From Deltaproteobacteria bacterium (GTDB lineage: Bacteria; Myxococcota_A; UBA9160; UBA6930), in NCBI GenBank assembly GCA_016875395.1, contig VGRF01000020.1:1-64000 (forward strand): a stretch of DNA of 64,000 nucleotides, read 5' to 3'. Positions within the stretch are counted from its first letter, which is position 1, and each line of letters starts with the position of its first letter. Below, piece by piece: positions 38,155-43,423 of the stretch. The position numbers and the translations under genes are program-made. The notes beneath the pieces were generated by a model. That model worked only from the letters and a program-made list of their open reading frames with translations. It had not been told where the DNA came from and made no database searches.

Positions 38155-39708
38155 ATGAACGGCGCAGAGGTCCTGATCGAGACGGCGCGGCGCGGTGGCG
38201 TCGAGGTGTGCTTCGCGAACCCCGGGACGACCGAGATGCCGCTCGTCGCGGCGCTCGACAAGGCGCCGGGCGTGCGCGCGGTGCTCGGCCTGTTCGAGGG
38301 TGTGTGCACGGGCGCCGCCGACGGCTACGCGCGCATGAGCGGCAGACCGGCCGCGACTTTGGTGCACCTCGGCCCCGGCCTCGCCAACGGTCTCGCGAAT
38401 CTGCACAACGCGCGCCGCGCGCGCGTGCCCGTCATCAACTGGATCGGCGACCAGACCGTCGAGCACCTCCCGTTCGACGCGCCGCTCACCTCCGACATCG
38501 CAGCGCTCACGGGCTGGACGGGCTGGACGCTCGCGGTGAAGAGCGCGAGCGAGATGGCGGAAGCGAGCGCAGCCTCGATCGCGGCGGCGCTCGGCCACCC
38601 CGCGCGCATCGCCTCGCTGATCCTGCCTGCGGATGCGCAGTGGGATCCCGCGAGCGCGGCCATCACACCTGCGCCGCGCGCGAGCGCCCCGAGCGCGGCG
38701 CCCGAGCGCGTGCGCGAAGCCGCTCGGCTGCTGCGCGCCGGCGGCGGCTACGTGCTGCTCGGCGGCGACGCGCTCGGGCTGCGCGGCCTAACAGCTGCCG
38801 CGCGCATCGCCGCAGCGAGCGGCGCGACGGTGCTGATCGAGACGTTCCCGTCGCGCATGGAGCGCGGCCGCCACCTGCCGAGCTTCGCGGGTCTCCCGTA
38901 CTTTCCCGAGCAGGCGCGCGCCGCGCTCGCGAAGGCGAAGAGCCTCGTGCTCGCCGGCGCGCGCGAGCCCGTGGGCTTCTTCGGTTACGCGAACGAGGCC
39001 CCGCGCCTCGCACCTGCGAACGCGCCGCTGTGCGCGCTCGCGGATCCCGACGCCGGCATCGACGCCGCGGGCGCGCTCGAAGCGCTCGCCGACGAGCTCG
39101 GCGCGCCCGCGCGCGTCGAGATTCCCGCGCGCGCGCACGAGAGCTTCGCACCCACGGGCGCGAAGCTCGACCTCACCTCGCTCGGCCGCGCGCTCGCGTC
39201 GCTGCAGCCCGAGAACGCGATCGTCGTGAACGAGGCGGCCACGAGCGGGCTGCCCTGGAACGCGGGCGCCGCCGCGAGCGCCGCGCCGTTCACGATGCTG
39301 GGCCTGACAGGTGGCGCGATCGGTCAAGGCCTCCCGACCGCGCTCGGCGCCGCGATCGCGTGCCCGGATCGCCGCGTGATCGCATTCCAGGCCGACGGCA
39401 GCGGGCTCTACACGCTGCAGTCGCTGTGGTCGATGGCGCGCGAGGGTGTGAACGCCACGGTCGTCGTCTGCGCGAACCGCAAGTACCGCATCCTCCAGGC
39501 GGAGCTCGCGCGAGCGGGCATCGCCGAGCCGGGTCCGAAGGCGCGCGCCCTAACAGATCTCGGCAGCCCGACGATCGACTGGACCGCGCTCGCGAGGGGC
39601 TTCGGCGTACCGGCCGTGAGCGCCGCGACGGACAGCGAGCTCGTGGAGGCGCTGAAGCGCTCGCTCGCGACGCCGGGGCCGACGCTCGTGGAGGCGGTGC
39701 TGGCGTGA
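38155..39708 (+). CDS. ThDP-dependent enzyme, acetolactate synthase large-subunit-like
   Basis: The 517-residue enzyme has the three-domain pyruvate-oxidase-like plan: [14 protein letters not shown] with the catalytic Glu of the helix ([16 protein letters not shown]), a middle domain, and a C-terminal ThDP-binding motif [21 protein letters not shown]...CANRKYRIL (GDG variant ADG). Annotated relatives are called acetolactate synthase large subunit or benzoylformate decarboxylase-like; I cannot decide the substrate. No small regulatory subunit is near, which argues against a genuine IlvB. The RBS GGGAGG precedes the ATG. The gene is monocistronic, or followed by the broken M48 gene 60 bases on. 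Confidence 0.85.
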
Positions 39709-41827: not shown

Positions 41828-43153
41828 TCACGCGGCGCTGCGCGCCACGATCTCCCGCAACTGCACGTCGCTCACCTCGCGGCTTCGCGCCGCGAGCTGC
41901 TGGAACGCGCGGAACGCGCGCTCGCACTGCGCCTCGCTCAGCACCTCGCCGAGCGCAGCGACTCGCGCCGCGAAGCGCGCGCGCCCCGAGAGCTTGCCGA
42001 GCACGATCTCGCTGCCGACGGGATGCCCGATCCACGCCGGGTCGAGCGTCTCGTACGTCTCGCGGTGCTTCAGCACGCCGTCTTGGTGGATGCCCGAAGC
42101 GTGGCGGAATGCGTTGCGCCCCACGACGGCCTTGTTCGCGGGCACCTCGATCCCGCTGCGCTCGGCGACGATGCGCGAGAGCGCGTAGAGCGTGTCGAGC
42201 TTCAGCGCTGTCGTCATGCCGAGCCGCGCGCCGTGCACGCGCAGCGCAGCGGCCACCTCTTCGAGCGAGGTGTTGCCCGCGCGCTCGCCGATGCCGTTGA
42301 TGGTGCACTCCACCTGGCCAGCGCCCGCGGCGATTGCGGCGAGCGAGTTCGCGGTGGCGAGGCCGAGGTCGTCTTGACCGTGGAACGAGATCGTCGCGCG
42401 CTCGAGCTCCGGCACGCGCGCGCGCACGCCGCGAATCATCTCGGCGACTTGCTCGGGCGTCGCGCATCCCACGGTGTCGGGCAGATTGAGCGTGCGCGCT
42501 CCCGCCGCGAGCACGGCGCGCGCCAGCTCCGCGAGAAACTCCGGCTCTGCGCGCGTGGCATCCATCGGTGAGAACTCGACGTCATCCGTGAATTCGCGCG
42601 CGCTTCGCACCATCGCCGCGGCCATCGCGACGACCTGCTCGCGCGATTTCCCGAGCTGATGCGCGAGCTGCATGTCGCTCGCGTTCACGAACACGTGGAT
42701 GCGCGGCGCACGCGCGTGGCGCAGCGCTTCTCCCGCCGCGGCGACGTCGCGCGGCACCGCGCGCGCGAGCGCGCACACGCTGGCATCGCGCACTTCGAGC
42801 GCGACGGCCGCGACCGCGGCGGCTTCTTCCGGCGAGCTCACCGGAAAGCCCGCCTCGATCACGTCCACGCCGAGCGCGTCGAGAAGCAAAGCGATCTCCG
42901 CCTTGTCGTGCGCCGAGAAGCACACGCCGGCGGACTGCTCGCCGTCGCGCAGGGTCGTGTCGAAGATCGCGATGCGCCGGGCAAGCGCAGCGCGCAGCGA
43001 GGCGGAGTCTTCGGAGCCGAGCGGAGATCGAACAGCGGCCTCGATCTGCGGCGGGACCTCGGGGTGCGCTGATCGGGCACCCGGTGTCGACGGACTTGGC
43101 GAGGGTGCGGCCGCGTTGCTCGGGACTCGAGATCGATCGTGAGAGCTGGGCAT
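41828..43153 (-). CDS. leuA: 2-isopropylmalate synthase, short form
   Basis: The 441-residue enzyme condenses acetyl-CoA with 2-ketoisovalerate, the first step of leucine synthesis. Catalytic region: IFDTTLRDGEQSAGV at about 63, ALGVDVIEAGFPVSS, VEFSPMDATRAEPEFL, NLPDTVGCATPEQVAEM, NGIGERAGNTSLEEV, and HASGIHQDGVLKHRETYE. It ends soon after, lacking most of the C-terminal regulatory domain. The metal-binding HxH motif reads FHGQDD: His258 then Gln260. The first about 55 residues are a Pro/Ser/Ala-rich extension. Its leader contains a Leu-rich peptide and attenuator, supporting a leucine role. The ATG has AGGAG five bases upstream, inside a hairpin. Confidence 0.88.
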   Translation of the reverse strand: MPSSHDRSRVPSNAAAPSPSPSTPGARSAHPEVPPQIEAAVRSPLGSEDSASLRAALARRIAIFDTTLRDGEQSAGVCFSAHDKAEIALLLDALGVDVIEAGFPVSSPEEAAAVAAVALEVRDASVCALARAVPRDVAAAGEALRHARAPRIHVFVNASDMQLAHQLGKSREQVVAMAAAMVRSAREFTDDVEFSPMDATRAEPEFLAELARAVLAAGARTLNLPDTVGCATPEQVAEMIRGVRARVPELERATISFHGQDDLGLATANSLAAIAAGAGQVECTINGIGERAGNTSLEEVAAALRVHGARLGMTTALKLDTLYALSRIVAERSGIEVPANKAVVGRNAFRHASGIHQDGVLKHRETYETLDPAWIGHPVGSEIVLGKLSGRARFAARVAALGEVLSEAQCERAFRAFQQLAARSREVSDVQLREIVARSAA

Positions 43154-43158
43154 GAGGT

Positions 43159-43194
43159 CTCCTGGTTCGCCCGCCCGCGGCGCCGTACCAGGAG
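43159..43194 (-). promoter_or_regulatory. Hairpin covering the leuA Shine-Dalgarno
   Basis: CTCCTGGT at 43159-43166 and ACCAGGAG at 43187-43194 are perfect complements. On the minus strand the downstream arm contains AGGAG, the leuA RBS, five bases before ATG. The structure would hide the RBS, so translation may be controlled as well as transcription. Confidence 0.6.
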
Positions 43195-43219
43195 TTCTCG
43201 CGATTTCGACCCTCGAAAC

Positions 43220-43260
43220 ACGAAGCCCTCTCCGGCCGGCGCGGCGGGAGAGGGCTTCGT
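43220..43260 (-). terminator. Leu-operon attenuator: 14-bp perfect inverted repeat
   Basis: The 14-base arms (43220-43233 and 43247-43260) are perfectly complementary around a 13-base GC-rich loop. On the minus strand the stem is followed by TGTTTCGAGG, a short T-run. It lies 13 bases past the leader-peptide stop and about 65 bases before leuA, as expected for a transcription attenuator. Confidence 0.75.
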
Positions 43261-43273
43261 GGTGCGCTGCGCG

Positions 43274-43342
43274 CTAGCCCCTTCCCGCCCTCCGAAGGAG
43301 GAGCAGGCCGAGGGCCAGCAGGCTGTGCGCGTTTCGTTGCAT
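43274..43342 (-). CDS. leuL: leu operon leader peptide (22 aa, seven Leu)
   Basis: The 22-residue frame begins MQRNAHSLLALGLLLLRR and ends in a short Arg/Gly tail. It has seven Leu codons, four consecutive (CTG CTC CTC CTT) after LLALG. Leucine-rich leader peptides followed by a terminator hairpin are the hallmark of leucine attenuation (as in enteric leuL). The RBS is weak. Ribosome stalling at the Leu run when leucyl-tRNA is short would prevent the downstream terminator. The Leu run itself contains CCTCC-TTC-GGAGG, a possible pause hairpin. Confidence 0.75.
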   Translation of the reverse strand: MQRNAHSLLALGLLLLRRAGRG

Positions 43343-43423
43343 CGCGGGGTGGAGTAGCCGAGCCCGCGCGTGAGTGTCAATGCGCGACACCGAGCGGTGT
43401 CGGCCCCGTGATACGGTCGCGCG

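Follow-up and report, generated by a model that had tools for sequence, protein, structure and literature searches.

The window analysed here, a 64,000-nucleotide stretch of bacterial DNA, encodes on its minus strand (41828-43153) a leuA gene whose product of 441 aa was recognised by family profiles as a short type I 2-isopropylmalate synthase (IPMS) with HMGL-like and HCS_D2 domains. The LeuA_dimer allosteric domain is absent from the protein by the same profiles, and its scores below the NCBIfam cut-offs are in keeping with the missing C-terminal domain. Its N-terminus carries about 55 extra residues, an extension that most relatives lack or have in shorter form. Ahead of leuA a sequence-only reading had described a leucine leader at 43154-43342; this range is correct, and the strand, which it did not give, is minus for all elements, that is the leader ORF, the stems and leuA itself. 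The ORF (MQRNAHSLLALGLLLLRRAGRG*, 43274-43342) reads ATG...CTG CTG GCC CTC GGC CTG CTC CTC CTT CGG AGG GCG GGA AGG GGC TAG and encodes, as had been claimed, a 22-residue peptide with seven leucines, four of them consecutive. The clustering of Leu codons in a short ORF recurs, in the same conserved frame, in 63 leaders. The CCTCC-TTC-GGAGG motif noticed over the Leu codons lies at 43301-43289 and folds as a 1:2 (pause-like) hairpin, CCUCC-UUC-GGAGG; in relatives a local hairpin is kept with a shifting register, as judged by eye.

Downstream of the ORF, folding and alignment revealed a terminator-like hairpin formed by strands 3 and 4 (43219-43261). Its outer stem, which pairs 43261-43247 with 43233-43219 (-37.6 kcal/mol, shuffle z -7.9), is present and perfect as the earlier reading had it, at a length of 15 bp and not 14. 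It is followed by a short U tract of only three residues (UUU, 43216-43218), and a strict terminator scan of the window left it uncalled. In relatives the tail past strand 4 is richer, with 5.4 T per 12 nt versus 1.9 in the next spacer and up to eight consecutive T. An element that had gone unnamed is the antiterminator, whose 5' strand, strand 2 (GGCGGGAAGGGGCU, 43276-43289), lies within the last leader codons and pairs with strand 3 (AGCCCUCUCCCGCC, 43243-43256) at 13 of 14 positions, with one mismatch (43289-43276 with 43256-43243; -28.2 kcal/mol, shuffle z -3.6). Antiterminator and terminator are mutually exclusive, strand 3 being common to both. The leader stop codon (43276-43274) abuts strand 2, so that a ribosome there would cover it. 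The leader fold as a whole has a shuffle z of -5.1.

Comparison with relatives had been proposed as the check on these stems, by way of covariation. Across 21 aligned leaders 91.7% of terminator cells are paired and seven pairs show two-sided changes, above both shuffles and slid controls. The antiterminator is paired in register in 87% of cells as against 56-62% when slid, and its covariation goes little beyond column composition in the shuffle control of the same 21 leaders. At equilibrium the terminator usually outcompetes the antiterminator; folding of the starved versus replete states in this way was thus of limited use, and an attenuation model requires co-transcriptional kinetics.

The leader frame and the stems, whose lack of conservation had been named as grounds for rejecting the idea, are both kept in relatives, and across an order conservation extends to the Leu-rich frame, the antiterminator, the terminator and the hairpin at the leuA Shine-Dalgarno (SD). 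Within the GTDB family every short leuA with upstream DNA available has a Leu-rich leader, in which strand 2 follows the pattern GGCGGGAGAGGG, strand 3 the pattern CCCTCTCCCGCC and strand 4 the pattern GGCCGGAGAGGG. The order adds further leaders, including one with the terminator side only (L110) and one that is masked (L111). A covariance model (E<=0.01) gave matches in 69 of the order's 80 genomes and in 78 of the 91 in the class, counts that include partial matches, some to the terminator only and some antisense. Three matching genomes lie elsewhere in the phylum, in two of which (L192, L193) the leader precedes a type I IPMS. The gene after the best leader matches is an IPMS by family profiles, that is, an enzyme making the amino acid to be sensed. 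Statistically, the leuA relatives do not count as independent cases. An Rfam scan of the leader, leucine leader families included, gave no match at gathering score, and only chance-level matches to unrelated families (E 2.6-3.1). Among the papers and Rfam families searched, the leader family and its habits appear undescribed, and the class to which it extends leader-peptide attenuation is one for which these sources describe no case.

The promoter suggests how the leader is read. A TTGACA -35 box is predicted at 43375-43380 and, after an 18-nt spacer, a probable -10 box, TACTCC, at 43351-43356, 8 nt ahead of the leader ATG. Of 63 leaders, 61 have TTGAC 35-40 nt (mode 38) ahead of their start; as the search covered 28-48 nt and preferred TTGAC and distances near 38, the spread of distances is somewhat favoured by the rule, while the near-universal TTGAC is not. 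A TA-rich hexamer usually sits 17 nt past TTGAC and 6-12 nt ahead of the start codon, and an SD-like motif precedes the leader ORF at only 12 of the 61 loci with TTGAC. A generic promoter scan of the window made no call at this site. From the geometry of the two boxes and the scarcity of SD-like motifs we predict that the transcript starts at or near the leader ATG and that the leader mRNA is therefore leaderless or nearly so.

Within the Leu run one codon stands out. CTT serves as the last leucine codon (43295-43297 in the window) of 62 leaders out of 63, against a share of 5.1% among the Leu codons of sampled genes, and normally two codons separate it from the GCG of strand 2. The window's genome carries tRNA-Leu anticodons GAG, CAG, UAG, CAA and UAA. 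CTT and CTC, the commonest Leu codon, should be read by the same GAG tRNA. An RNA-structural reason for the fixed CTT is possible, and its near-invariance makes it a natural test case for the choice of a control codon.

The last element of the leader is the second stem that had been described as holding the leuA Shine-Dalgarno. Indeed the SD (AGGAG, 43159-43163, 5 nt ahead of the ATG) is sequestered in a hairpin (43159-43194) whose 8-bp stem, CUCCUGGU/ACCAGGAG, pairs 43194-43187 with 43166-43159 (-22.4 kcal/mol, z -3.0). To place this in context we separated type I leaders, which precede a type I IPMS, from type II leaders, which precede a distantly related, yeast-type IPMS. Upstream pairing of the SD has a mean probability of 0.90 (median 0.99) in type I and 0.72 in type II leaders versus 0.51 in 104 control genes, which were taken from 20 sampled stretches and the window and had their start sites assigned by a crude rule. 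With shuffled spacers the mean is 0.60 for type I and 0.51 for type II. The uninterrupted helix that holds the SD is on average 6.6 bp long in type I leaders, 4.4 bp in type II and 2.4 bp in controls. The p-values for type I leaders against controls, 1e-9 for pairing and 3e-9 for helix length (6.6 versus 2.4), are optimistic owing to the crude control start sites and the kinship of the leaders. The arms of the hairpin vary yet still pair, as in CUCCUGGU/ACCAGGAG, GCUCGCUCC/GGAGUGAGC and GGCUCCG/CGGAGCC.

Taken together these features point to a ribosome-mediated, leucine-sensing transcription attenuator followed by an SD-hiding hairpin of putative regulatory role, a reading to which we assign a probability of about 85%, the anatomy being laid out above and the dynamics proposed from it. 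The class of mechanism is already known. The RNA would begin at or beside the leader AUG, and the peptide would probably be translated from this leaderless 5' end. With ample leucine the ribosome would reach the UAG abutting strand 2 and cover that strand, allowing the 3:4 terminator to form. When charged tRNA-Leu is scarce, the ribosome would stall in the Leu run ending in CTT and leave strand 2 free to pair with strand 3 while strand 4 is still to be made, giving read-through into leuA. In the read-through RNA the leuA Shine-Dalgarno would then be closed off in a stable hairpin of its own, with the probable effect of lowering or gating leuA translation and so limiting leaky expression.

What the SD hairpin does is the point on which other readings differ. 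The earlier suggestion of transcription attenuation with possible translation control stands insofar as the hairpin is conserved anatomy; a coupling through strand 4 is unsupported in the window. Such a coupling would make the leader a six-strand dual switch, in which 2:3 pairing frees strand 4 (GGCCGGAG) to pair with the anti-SD arm (strand 5) and open the SD, and 3:4 pairing leaves 5:6 to hide it, so that transcription and translation are controlled jointly. When strand 4 was freed in the window leader the SD remained paired (0.96 versus 1.00), and 26 type I leaders behaved no differently from leaders with a shuffled strand 4 (p 0.42). In type II leaders, however, freeing strand 4 lowered SD pairing from 0.82 to 0.60, beyond the effect of a shuffled strand 4 (p 0.001), and pairing of strand 4 with downstream sequence exceeds that of shuffles (p 2e-5); the same behaviour is seen in a few leaders of type I (L106, L112, L116). 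Strand 4 and the SD have GGAG in common, and some complementarity to the anti-SD arm is thus automatic. Opening of the SD hairpin by strand 4 is therefore unsupported in type I and partly supported in type II leaders, and we consider the dual switch improbable.

A much stronger competitor, which we place only a little short of even odds, is that regulation is solely by transcription attenuation and that the SD hairpin either acts as a constitutive dimmer of translation or simply results from high GC. A search for an opening partner in type I leaders found none, and SDs in these genomes are often half paired anyway (0.51). Type I helix length and pairing are nevertheless far above those of control genes and shuffles, and differing arms keep pairing, an excess that argues against a GC by-product and not against a constitutive dimmer. 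A translational control in which the Leu-codon run itself pairs with the leuA SD, as in the actinobacterial LEU element, would draw on the partial complementarity of the window's Leu codons (CUCCUCCUU) to AGGAG. The SD, though, is paired to the local arm of its hairpin, and many relatives have CUGCUU and similar in place of CUCC; the pairing is not conserved, and such a mechanism is exceedingly unlikely here. Whether attenuators gate translation as well could be tested on the SD hairpin.

The window LeuA has no allosteric domain and the attenuator may for this reason stand in for a lost feedback inhibition. A second, long LeuA elsewhere in the window's genome has the allosteric domain and no leader, and long LeuA paralogs were likewise found without one. 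Most of the order's other genomes have the leader ahead of the yeast-type IPMS, which has the allosteric domain. This type occurs in 48 of the 91 class genomes and the short type in 25 genomes of the order, while in three more class genomes (L175, L178, L187) the leader is followed by a type I IPMS; short or type I and yeast-type enzymes co-occur in none of the 91. Several loci of each enzyme kind have a co-oriented recG upstream. Within one genus, one genome (G011) has the short type and another (G012) the yeast type, and over 20 kb the two are alike only in the leader (78% over 132 nt), their neighbourhoods differing; these leaders are each other's best match. The short-type leader L105 is nearest to yeast-type leaders, whereas three yeast-type leaders of family f9 are more alike mutually than to the short-type leaders of that family. 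Since the enzymes never co-occur and the leader sometimes tracks taxonomy and not the enzyme, the gene was apparently swapped under the leader, which seems, judging by similarity and not by a tree, to have persisted and sometimes moved during the exchange. Two distantly related, mutually exclusive enzymes behind one leader would make this a case of a regulator outliving the gene it regulates. A broader proposal, which we regard as speculative and rather unlikely, is a portable leaderless module, consisting of the scaffold and one fixed CTT codon, that was kept during the synthase swap and retuned to Trp codons before a transporter, with the ladder of the yeast-type branch also gating translation.

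Several known systems resemble parts of this leader. The Bacillus subtilis trp leader combines transcription attenuation with an SD-hiding hairpin in the read-through RNA, and its TRAP protein senses tryptophan. The combination is similar here; the proposed sensor is the ribosome and regulation of the SD hairpin is putative. The leu attenuator of E. coli and Salmonella (leuL) likewise has a short peptide with a run of Leu codons, a leucine biosynthesis gene downstream and an antiterminator competing with the terminator. In Salmonella its sensitivity was reported to come from rare CUA codons (PMC1183508), and the window leader similarly uses a rarer Leu codon, CUU. As it has no Rfam match, the window leader has no detectable sequence or structure relation to leuL, from which it also differs in that strand 2 is contained in the final codons of the leader, the leader is probably leaderless, an SD-hiding hairpin comes next and the family precedes two kinds of IPMS genes. 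The actinobacterial LEU element (PMC1262725) shares a Leu-codon leader ORF ahead of leuA and a paired leuA SD; there the Leu codons and the SD together form the base of a pseudoknot, and the description includes no terminator, whereas the window SD sits in its own local hairpin and a terminator-like stem is present. The Sinorhizobium trpL attenuator (PMC7298713) also acts by transcription attenuation with a leader ORF at the RNA 5' end (leaderless), but it is alphaproteobacterial, with Trp codons ahead of trpE(G).

Related scaffolds were seen at other loci. A similar one precedes an MFS transporter at L170, L176, L177, L183, L185, L195, L198, L209 and L211, with a strand-2-like G-rich stretch and a CCCTCTCCCGCC-type terminator. 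In most of these leaders Trp codons replace the Leu run (L176 ...AWTVWKWKVGGGAPGR, L195 ...SWWKRAAGEEWPD, L170 MSARRDWCWQ...) and a few have TTGAC 35-39 nt ahead of the start, making the scaffold a candidate tryptophan attenuator of the transporter. Seven loci of one family (L196, L197, L204-L207, L210) carry a terminator-like hairpin, ACGAGAACCCCTCCCGCC..GGCCGGAGGGGTTCTCG, with a GGAGGGGGACTCC-like stretch upstream, and no clear leader peptide or target gene at these loci. Near leuA in the window, an ORF at 38155-39708 resembles, by eye only, a thiamine-diphosphate enzyme of the acetolactate-synthase kind, which is possibly also present in the related locus L234. Finally, two loci of genus g31 (L186, L190) have diverged Leu leaders, MSSRVRTHDQKLLSLLLLALQPLIKREEVLSA and MSNPARNELLLGLLELALILRLSQREEVSFA, ahead of a yeast-type IPMS, in which strand 2 is changed and the TTGAC-38 nt-ATG geometry is kept.
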